A stretch of 57,418 nucleotides of DNA from an uncultured Nocardioidaceae bacterium (GTDB taxonomy: Bacteria; Actinomycetota; Actinomycetes; Propionibacteriales; Nocardioidaceae). A program made the translations under genes and the position numbers. Positions 39,172 through 55,787 of the stretch are shown here, in pieces. The stretch is taken from positions 1-57,418 of the forward strand of contig CADCUK010000206.1 in the NCBI GenBank assembly GCA_902805865.1. The letters are read 5' to 3'. The notes under the pieces are model-generated. The model was not told where the DNA came from. It was given only the letters and a program-made list of their open reading frames with translations, and did no database searches. Position 1 is the stretch's first letter. The number at the start of each line of letters is the position of its first letter.

Positions 39172-39217
39172 GTCGCTTTGACGTCGGTCGGTGGCATTGA
39201 CCATGCTGGCCCGCATC

Positions 39218-41065
39218 ATGCGCTCCCTCCTCGCCGCCGGGCTGCTCTGCGCTCTCTCGCTGACCTCGTGCTCGAGCGACGAGCCGTCGGCCGAGGACAC
39301 CGCCGAGCAGGTCGCCGAAGGGCTCACGGCGGGCGAGCTTCCTCCGTCGGCCTTCGAGGGCGAGGCGCCCCAGGCGGCGTACGACGAGATCGTGCGCGGG
39401 CTGGGCGAGGCCGAGCCGACCGTGGAGGTGGGGGAGGTCAGCGAGGACGACACCTCCGCCGAGGCGGCGCTGTCGTGGAGCTGGAGCCTCGGCGAGCAGA
39501 CGTGGGAGTACGAGTCGTCGCTCGAGCTGACCAACGACGGGGAGGCGTGGCGGGCTGTCTGGGCGCCCTCGGTCGTGGAGCCGACCTTGACCGAGGACGA
39601 GTCGCTCGCGGTCACCACGCTCACCCCCGAGCGGGGCGACATCCTCGGCGCGCGCGGTGTCCGGCTGGTCACCGAGCGGCCGGTCGTCCGGCTCGGCATC
39701 GACAAGACCCAGGTCTCGAAGAAGCAGGCCCCGGTGAGCGCAGCCCGAGCCGCGGAGCTCCTCGACGTCGAGCCGGGACCCTTCGTCAAGGCAGTGAAGG
39801 GCGCCGGGGACCAGGCGTTCGTCGAGGCGATCGTGATGCGTCCCGGCGACGCCGAGATGATCAGCCCGTCCTACTACGACACCCCCGGTGCGGTGGCGCT
39901 CGAGGACGAGCTGCCGCTGGCGCCCAACCGCGACTTCGCCGCCGCGATCCTCGGCCGCGTCGGCTCCGCGACTGCGGAGCTGATCGAGGAGTCCGAGGGC
40001 AGGCTGCGGATCGGCGACGTCGTCGGCCTGTCCGGCCTCCAGGCGCGGTACGACGAGGAGCTCACCGGCACCCGCGGGCTCGAGGTCGAGGCGGTCACCG
40101 AGGACGGTGAGCCACGGTCCCTGTTCACCGCCGAGCCGGTCGCCGGCGAGCCGCTCCGCACCACCCTCGACGAGCGGCTCCAGACCAAGGCGGAGCAGGT
40201 CCTCGCCGGCACCCAGGACGTGCCTGCCGCCATCGTGGCGATCCGCCCCTCCACCGGTGCGATCCTCGCCGCGGCGAACGGCCCCGGCACCGGCGGCCTC
40301 AACATCGCCACCTACGGGCAGTACGCCCCCGGGTCGACCTTCAAGGTCGTCTCGTCCCTCGCCCTGCTGCGTGCCGGCGTCACCGCGGACGACACCGTCC
40401 GGTGCCCGGACTCGACCGTCGTGGACGGGAAGCAGTTCGAGAACTACGACGACTACCCGTCCAGCGAGCTCGGCGACATCCCCCTCCGCGACGCCGTCGC
40501 CTACTCGTGCAACACGGCCTTCATCAACGCCCGCACACAGGTCTCGGAGGCGGGGCTGGCCGACGCCGCGGAGTCGCTGGGGCTCGGCGCGGACCAGGAC
40601 CTCGGCTTCCCTGCCTACTTCGGACAGGTGCCGCCACCCGGGTCCGAGACCGAGCTGGCCGCGGACATGATCGGTCAGGGCAAGGTGCTTGCCTCACCGA
40701 TGGTGATGGCCACGGTCGCCGCATCGGTGCAGTCCGGCCGCACGGTCGTGCCCTACCTCCTCGAGGACTACCGTCCCGAGGCGTCGCCCGCGGAGCCGTT
40801 GCAGCCGGACGAGGCCGCGAGCCTGGCCGAGCTGATGCGCGGCGTGGTCGCCGAGGGGTCGGGTGCCTTCCTCGGCGACGTGTCCGGGGACGTCGGCGCG
40901 AAGACCGGTACGGCGGAGTACGGCGAGCCGGGTCCGGACGGCTCGCTCCCGACCCACACGTGGATGATCGCGTTCCAGGACGACCTCGCGGTCGCGGTCT
41001 TCGTCGAGACCGGGGAGTCGGGCTCCTCGACCGCCGGGCCGCTGCTGGAGGCCTTCCTCTCGTGA
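39218..41065 (+). CDS. penicillin-binding transpeptidase, lipoprotein type
   Basis: A 615-residue exported transpeptidase. It starts with a lipoprotein signal, MRSLLAAGLLCALSLTSC, with lipobox LTSC and Cys18 as the anchor. An NTF2-like N-terminal domain (about residues 25-135) resembles the MecA_N region, then a middle domain and a penicillin-binding domain follow. The active-site serine is in STFK (Ser373, Lys376), with SCN (Ser430-Asn432) and KTGT (562-565). It would cross-link peptidoglycan and could tolerate beta-lactams. The ATG at 39218 gives a clean signal; GTG 39191 and ATG 39203 are alternatives. Confidence 0.92.
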   Translation: MRSLLAAGLLCALSLTSCSSDEPSAEDTAEQVAEGLTAGELPPSAFEGEAPQAAYDEIVRGLGEAEPTVEVGEVSEDDTSAEAALSWSWSLGEQTWEYESSLELTNDGEAWRAVWAPSVVEPTLTEDESLAVTTLTPERGDILGARGVRLVTERPVVRLGIDKTQVSKKQAPVSAARAAELLDVEPGPFVKAVKGAGDQAFVEAIVMRPGDAEMISPSYYDTPGAVALEDELPLAPNRDFAAAILGRVGSATAELIEESEGRLRIGDVVGLSGLQARYDEELTGTRGLEVEAVTEDGEPRSLFTAEPVAGEPLRTTLDERLQTKAEQVLAGTQDVPAAIVAIRPSTGAILAAANGPGTGGLNIATYGQYAPGSTFKVVSSLALLRAGVTADDTVRCPDSTVVDGKQFENYDDYPSSELGDIPLRDAVAYSCNTAFINARTQVSEAGLADAAESLGLGADQDLGFPAYFGQVPPPGSETELAADMIGQGKVLASPMVMATVAASVQSGRTVVPYLLEDYRPEASPAEPLQPDEAASLAELMRGVVAEGSGAFLGDVSGDVGAKTGTAEYGEPGPDGSLPTHTWMIAFQDDLAVAVFVETGESGSSTAGPLLEAFLS

Positions 41066-43103: not shown

Positions 43104-44606
43104 TCAGCCTCGCTGCGGCGGTGCCTGCGGGGGTGCAGAGCCCCGGCGCGCCTCCTGCTCCGCCACCTCGTCGAGGTCCGCCAGCCGGTCGAGCCCCATG
43201 AGCGGACGCCGCATGCGCGGGTTGCCGGCCAGCCGCTCGCGGTTGCGGGCGAGGAAGGACCAGTAGCCGGCGGTGAACGGGCACGCGTCCTCGCCGAGCC
43301 GGACCTTGGGGTCGAACCGGCAGCCGCCGCAGTAGTCGCTCATCCGGTTGATGTACGCACCTGCCGACGTGTACGGCTTGGTGGCCAGCGCGCCGCCGTC
43401 CGCGTGCTGCGACATGCCGATGATGTTGGCCACCATCACCCAGTCGTAGCCGTCGACGAACGACCGGTGGAACCAGTCCATGACCTGCAGGGGGTCCCAG
43501 CCCCGCTGCAGCGCGTAGCTGCCGAGCACCATCAGCCGTGGGATGTGGTGCACCCAGCCGTCGTCGCGGAGGTTCGTCAGGACGTCCGAGAGGCAGTGGG
43601 CCTCGGTCGCGTCGCCGTCGAGCTCGTCGAACCACTTCGGGAGCTCGACGGTGGCGGCCAACGCGTTCGCGTGCCGGTAGTCGTGGCCGAAGTGCCAGTA
43701 GAGGTGCCACATGTACTCCCGCCAGCCCATCACCTGACGGACGAACCCCTCGACGCTGGCCAGCGGTGCGGCACCGCTCCGCCAGCGCTGCTCGGCGCGG
43801 GAGACGAGATCGGCCGGGTCGATGAGGCCGAGGTTCTGCGGAGCCGAGAGCACCGAGTGCGCCATCCACCGGTCGGTGCTGAGCATGGCGTCCTCGTAGG
43901 GACCGAAGGCCTCGAGCCGGTGCTCCAGGAAGTGGTCCAGGACGGTGCCGGCCTCCTCGGTGGTGGCCGCGAAGCGACGAGGACCGTCGCGGCCGACGAA
44001 GCCGACGCCGTCCCGCTCCCAGCCGTCGAGGTCGCTCCGGACACCCGCGTCGACGTCGTCCTCCTCGGGCCACCACGGCTCCGGCGTCCCCAGCGAGGAG
44101 TCCTTCGGGGGCGGCTCGCGGTTCTCGGTGTCGTAGTTCCAGCGGCCCCCGGCCGGCTCGTCGCCGTCCATGAGCACACCGAGCCGGCGACGGGCGTCGC
44201 GGTAGTAGTCCTCCATGAGCAGCCGCTTCGATCCGCGGCGTGCGGCCCACTGCTCGAACTCGTCACGAGCGGTGAGGAACCCGCGGGCGGGGAGCAGCTC
44301 GACGGGACGTTCGCGCGAGAGCTGCTCGACGAAGCGCAGGGCGGCGAAGCTCGTCGGCTGCAGCACCTGCAGCGGGCCGTCGACCTGCGCCAGCGCCTCC
44401 CGGTAGGTGTCGGTGCGGAGGTAGGTGACCCGGTCGCCCAGCTCGGCCGCGCGGTGACGCATCGCGGACAGCACGAGGTGTGCCTTCTGGCGGTGGAACC
44501 GCCGGCGACGGAACACCGCCTGCGACTCGACGACCAGCAGCGGCCCGTCGTGGTCGTCGGTGAAGTGCGGACCGAGCTGGTCACCGAACAGCCACCGCGT
44601 CGTCAC
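43104..44606 (-). CDS. FeS-type photolyase/cryptochrome (PhrB/CryB-like)
   Basis: A 500-residue flavoprotein of the FeS bacterial cryptochrome/photolyase group. The N-terminal domain opens with TRWLFGDQLGPHF. The FAD-binding C-terminal half includes VRQVMGWREYMWHLYW and LMVLGSYALQRGWDP. Four cysteines placed as in PhrB are visible: one in EAHCLSDV and three in YCGGC and GEDACPF, which should bind the [4Fe-4S] cluster. Members repair (6-4) photoproducts. The GTG at 44606 gives the family start TTRWLFG; an ATG at 44633 is possible. It lies 39 bases downstream of the trehalose gene. Confidence 0.9.
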   Translation of the reverse strand: MTTRWLFGDQLGPHFTDDHDGPLLVVESQAVFRRRRFHRQKAHLVLSAMRHRAAELGDRVTYLRTDTYREALAQVDGPLQVLQPTSFAALRFVEQLSRERPVELLPARGFLTARDEFEQWAARRGSKRLLMEDYYRDARRRLGVLMDGDEPAGGRWNYDTENREPPPKDSSLGTPEPWWPEEDDVDAGVRSDLDGWERDGVGFVGRDGPRRFAATTEEAGTVLDHFLEHRLEAFGPYEDAMLSTDRWMAHSVLSAPQNLGLIDPADLVSRAEQRWRSGAAPLASVEGFVRQVMGWREYMWHLYWHFGHDYRHANALAATVELPKWFDELDGDATEAHCLSDVLTNLRDDGWVHHIPRLMVLGSYALQRGWDPLQVMDWFHRSFVDGYDWVMVANIIGMSQHADGGALATKPYTSAGAYINRMSDYCGGCRFDPKVRLGEDACPFTAGYWSFLARNRERLAGNPRMRRPLMGLDRLADLDEVAEQEARRGSAPPQAPPQRG

Positions 44607-44645
44607 GTCAGCCAGCGTAGGAACTCCCTGCAACCCGTGCCGGGA

Positions 44646-47600
44646 TCAGGGCAGCGGCACGAGGACCGCACCGGCGTGAGCCGGCAGGGTCACCCGACCA
44701 CGGTCCACGACGGCACTCGAGGGTGTGGCCCAGCGCAGCTCGTGCTTGGCCCCGAGGTCGACGACGGCCTCCTGGTCGCCCAGGTTGAGTGCCACGGCGA
44801 CGTCGCCGCGCCGCATGACGAACCAGCGTGCGTCCTCGTCGTACTCGCAACGGGTCGCGGTCATGTCGGGGTCGGTCAGCTCCGGGGTACGCCGTCGCAG
44901 CTCGGCCAGCTCGCGGTAGATCTGCAGCAGCACCGCGTGCCGGCCCTGCTCGGTCTCCGACCAGTCGAGCTTCGACATCTGGAACGTCTGCGGGTCCTGC
45001 GGGTCGGGCACCTGTGACTCGTCCCAGCCCATCCGCTCGAACTCGCGCAACCGGCCCTGCGAGACCGCCTCACCGAGCTCCTGCTCGGGGTGCGAGGTGA
45101 AGAACGCGAACGGCGACGAGGCTGCCCACTCCTCGCCCTGGAAGAGCATCGGCGTGAACGGACCGCACAGCGTCAGCAGCGCCGCGCACGCCAGCTGGTC
45201 GACGTCCAACTTCTCCGGCCGGAGATCTGACAGTCGGTCACCCCTCGCCCGGTTGCCGACCTGGTCGTGGTTCTGGTTGCAGACGACGAGCCGCCAGCCG
45301 GGCATGTGCTCGGTGTCGATCGGCTTGCCGTGCTCGCGGTCGCGGAACGACGACCAGGTGCCGTCGTGGAAGAACCCCTTCTCGCAGACCTTGGCCAGCG
45401 CGGCCAGCGGCTCGAAGTCGGCGTAGTAGCCCTCGGTCTCCCGGGTCAGCGCGACGTGCACGGCGTGGTGGTAGTCGTCGCTCCACTGGCCGTCGAGCCC
45501 GTAGCCGCCGGCCTCACGCGGGGTGATCAGGTGCGGGTCGTTCATGTCCGACTCCGCGATCAGCGTGAGCGGGCGCCGCTGGTGGGCGGACAGCCTCGCG
45601 GTCAGCACCGCCATCTCCTCGAGGATGTGGGGCTCCGAGCCGTCCTCCAGCGCGTGCACGGCGTCGAGCCGCAGCCCGTCGACGTGGTAGTCCTCGAGCC
45701 ACATCCGCACGTTGTCGAGGATGTAGCGCCGCACCTCCTCGGAGCCCTCGCCGTCGAGGTTCACGTGGTCGCCCCACGGGTTGGCGCCCTCGGACGACAG
45801 GTAGGGACCGAACATCGGCAGGTAGTTGCCCGACGGCCCGAGGTGGTTGTAGACGACGTCCTGGATGACACCCAGGCCGGCGGCGTGGCAGGCGTCGACG
45901 AACCGCTGGTACGCCGCGGGACCGCCGTACTGCTCGTGCACGGCGAACCACGCCACCCCGTCGTACCCCCAGCCGTGGTCGCCGTTGAAGGCGTTCACGG
46001 GCAGCAGCTCGACGAAGTCGACACCGATCGACCTCAGGTGGTCGAGCTTGTCGACCGCGGAGTCGAGCGTGCCCTCGGGGGTGAACGTGCCGACGTGCAG
46101 CTCGTAGATCACCGACCCCGGGAGCTGTCTGCCGGTCCACTGCTCGTCGGACCAGCTGTAGGCCGCGGGGTCGAAGGTGCGCGACCGCTCGTGCACGCCG
46201 TTCGGCTGACGACGCGACCGCGGGTCCGGTACGACGTTCGCGCCGGTCCCTGAGCTTCTCTCGGTCCCTGAGCCTGTCGAAGGGTCGACGAGGTAGCCGT
46301 AGTCGATCTCCCCGAGCGGCTCGGGACCGGTGGGGCGCCACCAGCCGTCCCAGTCGGCCGCAGCCCCGCGCTCCATCGGCACGACACGGTTGCCGACGCT
46401 CAGCGACATCGACTCCGCGGTCGGCGCCCAGACGTCGAAGCGCCCGCGGGCACCCGCACCGCCGTGGTGCTCCTCCCGCACCAGCAGCGCCACCGGGTAG
46501 GCGCTGAGCAGCTCGGAGAGGGACAACCCGCCGCTCTCGCCGGTCGTCAGCCGCCGGCCGGTCATCAGGTCGACCCAGACACCGGGCGCGACGGGCAGCG
46601 AGGTGTCGCCCCACCCGCCCTTCGCAGCCAGGCCGACCGGCAGCCGGGTGGCCACGCTGATCGCCCCACCCCTGTCGAACGAGAGGACGTGGTCGGCGGC
46701 ACTGCCCTCGGCGGCGAGCGGCGTGTAGCCGGTGAACAGGTCGGGGTGCTCGCGGCGAGCGCTCAGCGCGACGTGGGTCAGCAGCAGCTTGACCGAGCCG
46801 TCGTCGTCCGGAGTCGGGGCCAGCGGTGGGCGCTCGCCGGCGCGCAGCTCCTTGAGCAGCGCGGCGCGCTGGTCGAAGTCGACCGGGCGGCGGTTGTCGG
46901 GGTCGACGAGGCTCTGCTCCCAGAGCTCGCTGCCCTGGTAGACGTCGGGGCTCCCGGGAACGGTCAGGGTGAGCAGCTTCGCCGAGAGCGCGTTGCTCCA
47001 GCCGGGGCCGGTCACCTGCCCGACGAGCCCGTCGAGGATCCTGCCGACCTCGGGGTCGTCGAAGGCCGCGTCGACGGCCGCGTGCACGGCGTTCTCGTAC
47101 TGCTCGTCCGGAGCGGTCCACAGCGTGCGGTCGCCGGCCTCGCGCATCGCCTTCTCGGCGTAGGCATGGAGCCGTTCGCGGCTGGCGGGCCAGGCACCGA
47201 GGACCGCCTGCCACAGCAGGTTGCCGAAGCCCGGGTCCGGCACCGGTGACAGGTCGAGGAGCCGGGTCAGCGCGTCGGACCACACCTCGGGGAGCTCGGC
47301 CAGCACGCTGATCCGCGCCCGCACGTCCTCGCCCCGCTTGGTGTCGTGGGTCGAGCCGGCGGTCATCGCGTGCGGCCAGTCCTCCTGGCGCCGCCGCATG
47401 GCCTCGTGGAACGCGTCGGGGGCGACCGAGAAGACGCTGGGGTCGCCGCCGACCTCGTTCAGAGAGGTGAGCCGTGCCCAGCGGTAGAAGGCACAGTCCT
47501 CGACGCCCTTGGCCATCACCATGCCGCTCGTCTGCTGGAACCGCTGGGTGGGCGGCGCTGCGCCGTCGGACATCACCGGCGCGAGCACGTCGAGGACCTC

Positions 47601-48863
47601 GGCCAGGTCCGGCCGGTGCCGGCGGGCGTCGGCCAGTGCGTGCTCGAGGTGCTCGCGACCCTCCGGGAGGTAGGAGCGGTAGACCGGGAAGCAGGCCAGC
47701 AGCTCGCTGACCGCGTCCTCGACCTGCTCGAAGGTCGGCGTTCTCGAGACGGGTTCGGTGGTTGAGCCTGTCGAAACCTCCTCCTCGACCACCGGCAACA
47801 CCTGCATGAGCTCGCGGCTGATCCTCCGCACCTCGGAGTGCAGGATGCCGTCGGCCACGTCGCGCTTGGTGCCGTGGATCATCTCGGCCCAGTCGACAGG
47901 GACCCCGCGGAGCTTGTTCTCGAGCTCGTCGAGCGGCCCCTCGCCGGCCGGGTCGACGAGCACCCGGTCGATCGTCGCCATGGCGTCGTACCCGGTGGTG
48001 CCGGCGGTCGCCCACGAGCGCGGCAGCTCCTCGCCGGGCTCGAGGATCTTCTCGACCAGGACGTAGGAGTCCTTGGTGAGCGCGGCCAGGTCGTCGAGGT
48101 AGCTCGCCGGGTCGCGCAACCCGTCCGGGTGGTCCACGCGGAGCCCGTCGACGAGCCCCTCGTCGAACCAGCGCCGGATCTCCGCGTGCGACTTGGAGAA
48201 CCACTCGGGGTCCTCCACCCGGATGGCGACGAGCGTGTTCACCGCGAAGAACCTGCGGTAGTTCAGGTCGTAGTCGGCGCGGCGCCAGCTGATCAGCTCG
48301 TAGTTCTGGCGTGCGTGCACGACGTTCGGGTCGACGTCGGGGCCGAGCTCGGCGGTGCCGGGCGCCAGCGGGAACCGCTGGTCGTAGTAGTGCAGCTCAC
48401 CGGCGAGCACGCGCAGGTTGGAGATCCGGCCGTCCTCGTCGATGTCGTCGTCGCCGATGACCGGGATGCGGAGGCGGCCGCCCGCCGCGTACCAGTCGAT
48501 GTCGAAGGCACTTGCGTACGGCGACTCCTGGCCGTGCGTGAGGACGTGCCACCACCACTCGTTCTCCCACGGTGCCGCGACGCCGACGTGGTTGGGGACG
48601 ATGTCGACGAGCACGCCCATGCCGAGCCGGCGGGCCTCGGTCGCCAGTGCCGAGAGCCCCGAGGCCCGTCCGCGCGAGGGGTCGATGGCCCGGTGGTCCG
48701 CGACGTCGTACCCGTGGCTGCTGCCGCTCTCCGACGCGAGCAGCGGGGACAGGTACACCCAGTCGACGCCGAGCTCGTGGAGGTAGGCAAGCCGGCGGGC
48801 TGCCTCCAGGAGGTCGAAGTCTTCGGTGATCTGCAGCCGGTAGGTGCTGACCGGGACGCGCAT
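44646..48863 (-). CDS. treYZ: fused maltooligosyl trehalose synthase and trehalohydrolase (TreY-TreZ)
   Basis: One 1405-residue frame joins both enzymes that make trehalose from linear maltodextrin. Residues about 1-795 are Tre[42 protein letters not shown] and [14 protein letters not shown], which turns the reducing end into a trehalose unit. Residues about 806-1405 are Tre[32 protein letters not shown] and NHDQVGNR, which releases trehalose. Only about ten residues ([11 protein letters not shown]) separate the two halves, with no stop or new start. GGAAGG precedes the ATG. Two repeat-derived insertions lie in variable parts of each half. It follows glgX on the same strand. Confidence 0.93.
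46245..46284. repeat. dispersed repeat inside the TreZ half
   Basis: GGTCCCTGAGC occurs at 46245-46255 and 46263-46273; the second continues into CTGTCGAAGGG. TGAGCCTGTCGAA (46269-46281) also occurs in the TreY half at 47763-47775. It encodes an in-frame [11 protein letters not shown]-type insertion at about residues 858-873, where related TreZ proteins have none. This is consistent with an inserted palindromic element kept in frame. Confidence 0.75.
47757..47793. repeat. palindrome-flanked repeat inside the TreY half
   Basis: GGTGGTTGAG (47757-47766) and CTCGACCACC (47784-47793) are inverted with one mismatch and flank CCTGTCGAAACC. The minus strand opens CCGGTGGTCGAGGAG, identical to 4723-4737. 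It encodes [13 protein letters not shown] and nearby residues (about 356-370) in a poorly conserved region. The element keeps the reading frame open. Confidence 0.75.
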
Positions 48864-53921: not shown

Positions 53922-55787
53922 TCAGGCCTCGATGGGGAACGGCAGGGTCACCGTGAAGGTGCTGCCCTGGCCGAGCTCGGACTCCACGAAGATCTCGCCG
54001 CCGTGCCGGTCCACGATGCGCCGCACGATGGCCAGCCCGAGGCCCGTCCCCGGAACGGCGTGGGCGACGGGGTTGGAGGAGCGGTCGAACTCCTGGAAGA
54101 GCGTGCCGAGGTCGGCGCCCGAGATGCCGATGCCGGTGTCCGCGCAGCTGATCACCGGGCCGTCCGGGCCGTCGTGCAGGGCGAGCGTGACCTGCCCGTC
54201 CTCCTTGGTGTACTTCACCGCGTTGCTGACGATGTTCGTGAGCATCCGCGCGATCTCCTCGCGCTCGCCCCACGCCAGCACGCCGGGCTCGACCCTCGAG
54301 GTGTCGATCGACTGGCGACGGCGGCTCGCCTGGATCGTCATCAGCTCGCAGACCTCGATGACGAGGCCGCTGAGGTCCATCAGCGCGGGCACGAAGGGCC
54401 GGTGCGGGTCCTTGATCTTGGTGAGCAGCAGCATGTCCTCCACGAGTGTCTGGAGGCGCCCCACGTTGCGGATGATGGCGTCGACGCTCACCGGCGAGGC
54501 GGCGCTGTCCTGGAGGAGCTCCACGTGGCCGGCGATCGACGCGAGCGGGTTCTTGAGCTCGTGGGTGATCGTCGCGATCATCTCGCCCTTGTACTCGTCG
54601 AGCTCCTGGAGCTCGCTGACGAGATGACGCTCGCGTTGGTACAGCCTCGCCCGGGCGACCGCGCGTCCGATCTCGCGCCCGACCTCGAGCGCTGCCTCGT
54701 CCTCGGCGGGACGCCATCCCTCGGCGGACGCGTTGCGCAGGATGGTCAGGAAGCCCAGGCAGTCCGGGCCGTCCCCGAGCGGGACCAGGACGAGCGTGCG
54801 GGCGTCCACGGCGTCGAGGAGGAGGTCGGCGGTCTCGCGGGACGTCCGGTCGAGGACCTCCGCGGAGGTGTCGCCGACGTCTGCGACGACGCAGGTCCGG
54901 GCCTGCTGCCAACACGCACGCGCGACCACCTCGCCGATCCCGAGGAAGTCCGGTGGCTCGCCGTGCTGCTGCTCCCCGGTCCGCTGGCCGTGCCGCTCCG
55001 CCACGCGGGCCTTGAGCTGCTCGAGCAGGTCGGGCGGGAAGGTCTCGCCCGGGCTCTTGCCGTCGCTGCCGGGCTCGTCGTTGTCGAACACGCGGATCAG
55101 CAGGCGGTCGCACCGGAAGCCGGTCCGCAGCGGGCCGAAGCTCAGGTCGACCACCTTGAGCAGGTCCAGCTCGCGGGAGGCCAGCTCGATGATCTCGCGG
55201 GTCGCCGCGGCCAGCCGGACACGTTCCTGGAGCCGGTCCCGCTCCTGCGCGTGGTGGATGGCGAGGCCGGCCTGGACGGCGTACATCTCGAGGACCTGCC
55301 GGCGGACCGCACCGGGTCGCATCCCGTCCTCGGGCAGGTCGACGCTGAGCACGCCGAGCAGGTCTCCGCCCGGCCCGTGGAGCGGTGCGTACAACGCGTC
55401 CAGCGGGTGCCAGGCGTCCGGCACGTCAAGCGGCTGCACGTCCGGGACCCAGCTGCTCACCACGTCCGCGGGGAGCCGGTCGTGCGGGACGAACCGCAGC
55501 GACCCCCACTCGTCGGCGATCGCGAACTCCTCGGTGAACTCCTCCAGGGGCATGCGCCGCCCGCGCAGCGCCTGGCAGGCGTCCTCGTCCCCGGCCACCG
55601 CGACGGCCTCCACGAAGCCGTGGGCATCGACGGCGTTGATCACCGCGACCCGGAAGCCGAGCACGTCGACCACGCCCTGGACCGCGGTCTGGAGCACCTC
55701 GGTGAGGTCCTGCACCGAGTGGACGGTCGTGATGAGGTCGTGGAGGTTGCGAAGAGCGCGCACCTCGGGCGCCACGTCCTCGCTCAT
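53922..55787 (-). CDS. soluble GAF-domain sensor histidine kinase
   Basis: A 621-residue kinase without membrane segments. Two GAF-type sensor regions (about residues 15-170 and 195-390) precede the dimerisation/phosphoacceptor helix (ATITHELKNPLASIAGHVEL, with the histidine) and the ATPase domain with the N box (NIVSNAVKYTKEDG), G1 (DTGIGI) and G2 (GTGLGLAIVRR). GGAGGAGG lies before the ATG. No response regulator is adjacent, so it is an orphan in this window. Signal and partner are unknown. Confidence 0.92.
   Translation of the reverse strand: MSEDVAPEVRALRNLHDLITTVHSVQDLTEVLQTAVQGVVDVLGFRVAVINAVDAHGFVEAVAVAGDEDACQALRGRRMPLEEFTEEFAIADEWGSLRFVPHDRLPADVVSSWVPDVQPLDVPDAWHPLDALYAPLHGPGGDLLGVLSVDLPEDGMRPGAVRRQVLEMYAVQAGLAIHHAQERDRLQERVRLAAATREIIELASRELDLLKVVDLSFGPLRTGFRCDRLLIRVFDNDEPGSDGKSPGETFPPDLLEQLKARVAERHGQRTGEQQHGEPPDFLGIGEVVARACWQQARTCVVADVGDTSAEVLDRTSRETADLLLDAVDARTLVLVPLGDGPDCLGFLTILRNASAEGWRPAEDEAALEVGREIGRAVARARLYQRERHLVSELQELDEYKGEMIATITHELKNPLASIAGHVELLQDSAASPVSVDAIIRNVGRLQTLVEDMLLLTKIKDPHRPFVPALMDLSGLVIEVCELMTIQASRRRQSIDTSRVEPGVLAWGEREEIARMLTNIVSNAVKYTKEDGQVTLALHDGPDGPVISCADTGIGISGADLGTLFQEFDRSSNPVAHAVPGTGLGLAIVRRIVDRHGGEIFVESELGQGSTFTVTLPFPIEA

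Follow-up and report, generated by a model that had tools for sequence, protein, structure and literature searches.

A natural fusion of the trehalose-forming enzymes TreY and TreZ, encoded by a single gene, in Nocardioidaceae

The treYZ locus

The window (the whole stretch of DNA that was analysed, 57,418 nucleotides of contig CADCUK010000206.1 from an uncultured Nocardioidaceae bacterium) carries on its minus strand an open reading frame, treYZ, that joins maltooligosyltrehalose synthase (TreY) and maltooligosyltrehalose trehalohydrolase (TreZ) in one polypeptide (Table 1). Translation of the minus strand from the ATG at 48863 yields 1405 residues and one terminal stop, with a calculated mass of 155 kDa; translation of the same coordinates on the plus strand, from 44646, runs into six stops. 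The first-pass annotation of this DNA had placed the gene exactly at 44646-48863, leaving out the strand, and had read it as one uninterrupted frame covering two complete enzymes. That reading is borne out by NCBIfam profile searches, in which both equivalog profiles score above their curated cut-offs and match at nearly full length: TIGR02401 (TreY) reaches 903.5 bits (cut-off 498.65) over aa 4-796 and positions 1-838 of an 838-position profile, and TIGR02402 (TreZ) reaches 769 bits (cut-off 538.8) over aa 808-1368 and positions 2-544 of 545. About 10 residues separate the two matches on the one chain. That the two enzymes are usually encoded separately, as had also been claimed, agrees with the sorting of 113 loci: two frames were found at 78, one frame at 26 and a single enzyme at nine.

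The gene upstream of treYZ, 75 bp away and on the same strand, encodes a glycogen debranching enzyme (GlgX/TreX) with CBM48 and alpha-amylase domains. The frame just downstream (43104-44633, minus strand) matches PF04244 at 136.5 bits, a photolyase-related protein without obvious connection to trehalose. Elsewhere in the window lie a sensor histidine kinase gene (53922-55787, minus strand), for which the best match is phoR_proteo and all of the best 25 of 79 matches fall below their curated cut-offs, and a frame resembling penicillin-binding protein 2 (39191-41065, plus strand; TIGR03423, 201.7 bits against a cut-off of 455).

Table 1. Features of the treYZ locus (window coordinates)
Feature	Position	Strand	Basis
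treYZ, single 1405-codon gene for fused TreY-TreZ	44646..48863	-	Unbroken frame; stop codon at 44646-44648
TreY part (maltooligosyltrehalose synthase), aa 1-797	46473..48863	-	TIGR02401; aligned to MTSase 6LCU
Linker, aa 798-807	46443..46472	-	Gap between the two HMM matches; aa 799-807 at pLDDT < 50
TreZ part (maltooligosyltrehalose trehalohydrolase), aa 808-1405	44649..46442	-	TIGR02402; aligned to 1EH9
Shine-Dalgarno-like GGGAGGAG, possible relic of a treZ ribosome site	46470..46477	-	In frame, codons R-E-E, aa 796-798
Shine-Dalgarno-like GGAAGGA, five bases 5' of the treYZ start codon	48869..48875	-	Read from sequence
glgX/treX, glycogen debranching enzyme, 763 aa	48939..51230	-	TIGR02100, 1016.5 bits (cut-off 640.9)

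Catalytic residues and linker

The TreY half aligns to the MTSase structure 6LCU across aa 3-797, and D244, E271 and D507, which we take to be its GH13 catalytic Asp/Glu/Asp, lie within stretches conserved between the two. The TreZ half aligns to the trehalohydrolase 1EH9 as a single stretch (aa 875-1320), in which D1067, E1104 and D1200, counted on the printed alignment, correspond to D252, E283 and D377 of 1EH9, presumably the GH13 catalytic Asp/Glu/Asp of TreZ. Both presumed catalytic triads are present in TreYZ. In comparisons of both halves with four congeners (L002-L005) NG86 dN is 0.13-0.22 against a dS of 0.46-0.59, and dN/dS is well below 1 in each half.

A structure model restricted to aa 640-1405 and made from a shallow alignment of 20 homologues (mean pLDDT 67.9, pTM 0.59) puts linker residues 799-807 below a pLDDT of 50, as it does further loops. 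A flexible tether is the simplest reading of the linker that so weak a model suggests.

The junction and its counterpart in unfused relatives

Inspection of the treYZ junction finds no stop and no usable start codon, just as the first-pass annotation had stated; its further statement that there is no ribosome site there was inexact, since the Shine-Dalgarno-like GGGAGGAG is present. The next in-frame ATG, GTG or TTG 3' of this motif is the ATG of aa 819, which is too distant and lies inside the TreZ match that begins at aa 808. In close unfused relatives the treZ start overlaps the end of treY or follows it directly (for example, GGGAGGACTCATGACC), and most of them have a Shine-Dalgarno-like motif towards the 3' end of treY, ahead of treZ. 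A count over 91 near relatives gave such a motif in 45 of the 54 frame-shifted pairs and 6 of the 7 same-frame pairs, in neither of the 2 distant pairs, and in 13 of 27 fused linkers; in this count one fused row (L043) had no anchor and one frame-shifted row (L055) was mis-anchored. A GAGGA-like run can also arise by chance, from E-E or R-E-E codons.

Because close unfused relatives have overlapping or abutting genes and 13 of the 27 fused linkers keep the Shine-Dalgarno-like motif as codons, the likely origin of the fusion is a small insertion or deletion at the overlap, or loss of the treY stop, either of which would have put a closely coupled treY-treZ pair into one frame. Expression of a product by readthrough of a stop was also considered and set aside: treYZ has no stop, and the 29 rows in which treY and treZ share a frame, with a single stop separating the domains, resemble normal gene pairs; where their junctions were printed, a start codon follows that stop.

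Conservation and distribution

The same unbroken frame is found in five of five genomes of the genus that were compared, the window's own included, with 74-80% identity in the other four. One of the congener loci (L003) is identical to that of Nocardioides caldifontis (L042) across the compared TreY stretch, which puts the window in or near the Nocardioidaceae. In the five genomes neither enzyme was seen as a separate protein in addition to the fusion, the other matches listed being partial and weak (E 8e-23 or weaker, with 31-44% identity).

Within the family, 294 genomes were searched and 198 matched at E <= 1e-100; at least 17 of these are fused, 16 by an unbroken full-length match and the seventeenth (G254) by two pieces within one 1418-residue frame. 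Twelve fused genomes outside the window's genus were sorted as fused from their DNA, five of them duplicating named loci. Among the matches listed, a further five genomes of the family have a frame that runs through both domains except for one internal TGA. At the level of the order, a threshold of E <= 1e-140 gave matches in 230 of 293 genomes, and among those listed are nine fused genomes from a second family; eight of these were sorted as fused from DNA, and in the ninth (G456) the fused frame is cut by the end of its contig after residue 1095. The search of the class (394 genomes, 1e-215) gave a full unbroken match in four genomes; the one new fusion is that of G628, which is 47% identical and consists of one 1455-residue frame with both domains. 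In the family of G628 (119 genomes with G628 included, 15 matching at 1e-180) the match is unbroken in G628 alone, and in five genomes the frame that spans the two domains is interrupted by one TGA. In the phylum, 7 of 396 genomes matched at 1e-215, the one full unbroken match being the window's own; no new fusion appeared among them, and in four genomes a single TAG interrupts the frame that spans the two domains. The 1e-215 threshold that was used for class and phylum is strict, and distant fusions that align in pieces may be missed by it.

In a collection of named organisms, 21 of the best 80 of 545 relatives are fused (three of them cut by contig ends), and further fusions are possible beyond those 80. 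Fused named isolates include Nocardioides sediminis, N. terrigena, N. currus, N. solisilvae and Aestuariimicrobium kwangyangense. At least one large lineage of actinobacteria, one that includes the Nocardioidaceae, has the fusion as a real, natural and conserved trait. As an observation in its own right, treY and treZ stand in the same frame with one intervening stop in G110, G241, G161, G290, G226 and several distant genomes.

One origin or several

The set assembled for comparison holds 128 rows, of which 36 are fused (a share that targeted fetching of fused rows has raised), 61 frame-shifted, 29 same-frame and two distant. Trees were quick LG+G4 reconstructions, with warnings from the program about long branches or long branches that meet; near-identical rows and rows of low domain coverage were left out beforehand, three fused rows were dropped as short, and the 128-row tree also leaves out unfused rows with TreY identity of 36% or less.

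The 91-row joint tree unites all but one of its 28 fused rows in a clade of 27 (SH-aLRT 99), the twenty-eighth (L037) standing beside an unfused gene. The tree of TreY alone places 34 fused rows on one side of a branch (SH-aLRT 96). In the tree of TreZ alone the main fused group needs two changes rather than one, and the starred branches force only one. The 128-row tree needs three changes, and in it G628 (L200) groups with the same-frame pairs of its own family. A single clade of all fused rows is rejected by the AU test on the 128 rows (p-AU 0.0002), while a single clade of the 35 fused rows other than G628 is not rejected (p-AU 0.494). At least two origins of the fusion are supported, with G628 separate from the rest, as far as can be judged from a tree that contains long rows and was built under the simpler model, LG+G4. 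We do not claim an additional origin for L037, a Nocardioides metagenome-assembled genome: its place beside the unfused L058 is starred, and the p-AU of 0.494 covers it.

Proposed function and competing explanations

We are fairly confident, from gene content and conservation, that TreYZ is a real bifunctional enzyme with its two activities tethered, derived from a coupled treY-treZ pair and encoded downstream of glgX/treX. The debranching enzyme encoded upstream would act on glycogen; the TreY half would convert the reducing end of the freed maltooligosaccharide to a trehalose unit, and the TreZ half, tied to it through a short flexible linker, would release the trehalose. The likely benefit would lie in a fixed 1:1 ratio of the two enzymes and in the closeness of their active sites. 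We infer expression, both activities, the insertion/deletion route and this benefit from the structure of the gene and its relatives.

That the frame is an error of sequencing or assembly joining two separate genes might be supposed for a draft genome (82% complete, 215 contigs), in which a small error between overlapping genes would suffice. The independent congener genomes rule this out, and we give it practically no chance: because the four congeners carry the same unbroken frame, two of them (G002 and G003) as single-contig genomes, the fusion is not a sequencing error, and named isolates (N. caldifontis, N. solisilvae and A. kwangyangense) are fused as well. Decay of one half, with the other alone at work, is very improbable. 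It could draw on the short inserts at aa 363-369 and about 861-876, two stretches absent from most of 18 aligned relatives, but these sit where the relatives vary in length, both presumed triads are retained, and the dN/dS ratios already given are well below 1 in both halves. A slightly better, although still poor, chance attaches to two proteins being made after all, by cleavage of the chain or by additional translation of treZ alone from its old ribosome site. GGGAGGAG still stands at the junction, but no in-frame start lies at a workable distance from it (the next being at aa 819, inside the TreZ match), and the motif is missing from 14 of the 27 fused linkers.

Of another kind is the proposal, also put forward by the first-pass annotation, of channelling, in which the fused protein would hand maltooligosyltrehalose from its TreY to its TreZ half with no release to the cytosol. 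TreY and TreZ catalyse consecutive steps and are covalently joined, and the second, distant fusion in G628 suggests that joining can be favoured; against this, the linker varies in sequence and in length (the anchors stand 30-60 nt apart over 27 fused rows), and its predicted order is low. Channelling is a fair hypothesis that we consider unlikely, if less so than the production of two proteins. Equally doubtful is the broader proposition of a two-step trehalose enzyme that arose at least twice in actinobacteria from coupled genes and acts as one unit, its TreZ site sitting near enough to the TreY site to cut maltooligosyltrehalose before it leaves; were it true, the conversion of glycogen to trehalose would be a closed process in these lineages. 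Tethering of two working enzymes is the reading of TreYZ that we prefer.

Relation to known systems

Both enzyme families and the pathway are well known, and TreYZ is a modest change of gene structure within it. The treXYZ operon of Arthrobacter sp. Q36 (PMC6245314, excerpt) has the same enzymes in the same order as here, glgX/treX, TreY and TreZ, but with treY and treZ as separate genes, which are one gene in the window. NCBIfam NF011077 (PRK14507) describes a TreY with a long extra part, and the partner there is not TreZ; TreYZ is not a member of that family, scoring 683.9 bits against a cut-off of 2148 and matching positions 1014-1692 of the 1693 in the profile. The extra part is presumably a 4-alpha-glucanotransferase. 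A fusion of the Sulfolobus enzymes was reportedly engineered in about 2002. The MTSase-MTHase fusion of Metallosphaera hakonensis (Seo et al. 2008, cited in the portion available of PMC7688234) likewise puts both enzymes on one chain but, unlike TreYZ, is man-made, and artificial assemblies or scaffolds of the TreY-TreZ pair are described in the sections available of PMC10497880. Consecutive trehalose-related enzymes are fused in nature in TreS-Pep2 (TreS-maltokinase; PMC4572677 and PMC11046441, in part) and TPS-TPP (PMC1769515, in part), but the enzymes and reactions differ from those of TreYZ.

No natural TreY-TreZ fusion was found in the accessible portions of the open-access literature on these enzymes, which does not prove its absence; the review PMC11046441, in the sections available, handles TreY and TreZ as separate enzymes, and no trehalose term occurs in the available main text of the gene-fusion survey PMC4921024. 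Genome annotation probably lists natural TreYZ proteins. The first-pass annotation had named a common, already described arrangement as what would refute its reading: the arrangement does recur in the order, but a description of it as a natural fusion was not found in that literature. Industrial trehalose is made with TreY and TreZ (PMC10497880, excerpt), and the natural fusions conserved over two families are ready-made versions of the pair that selection has shaped. Since relatives about 70% identical carry both enzymes unfused, these fusions also make it possible to test cleanly whether the joining of two consecutive enzymes helps.

Inserted peptides and a dispersed repeat

The inserts that most of the 18 aligned relatives lack read VSTGSTT (aa 363-369) and PSTGSGT with further residues (about aa 861-876), and these two extra peptides could impair TreYZ. 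A dispersed short repeat with the core TTCGACARGCTCA lies in frame twice within treYZ, at 47763-47775 and 46269-46281 (both minus strand), and it is this repeat that adds the short peptides. In the window's genome the core has seven matches against one for a reversed control, both treYZ copies included; of the five others, two read simply as FDKL coding sequence. In related genomes core matches number 139 (G037), 34 (G021), 24 (G015) and 11 (G004), with none for the reversed control in each; these counts are upper bounds, some of the matches being plain FDKL coding sequence. Some of the congener copies fall within long frames whose third-position GC is high; others look intergenic. The repeat recalls the in-frame palindromic elements of Rickettsia. 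A text search of the literature found no mention of TTCGACAGGCTCA.

At the same loop of TreY, the congener locus L003 has a similar peptide, and L004, L005 and L049 have EPVE. EPVE might, as a guess, be the repeat read in the other direction; a DNA scan with a relaxed core found no copy in the treY or treZ of those relatives within the 128-row set. In Marmoricola endophyticus (L110), the treY-treZ junction itself has a copy-like CCTTCGACAGGCTCAGGAC, within the opening codons of treZ.
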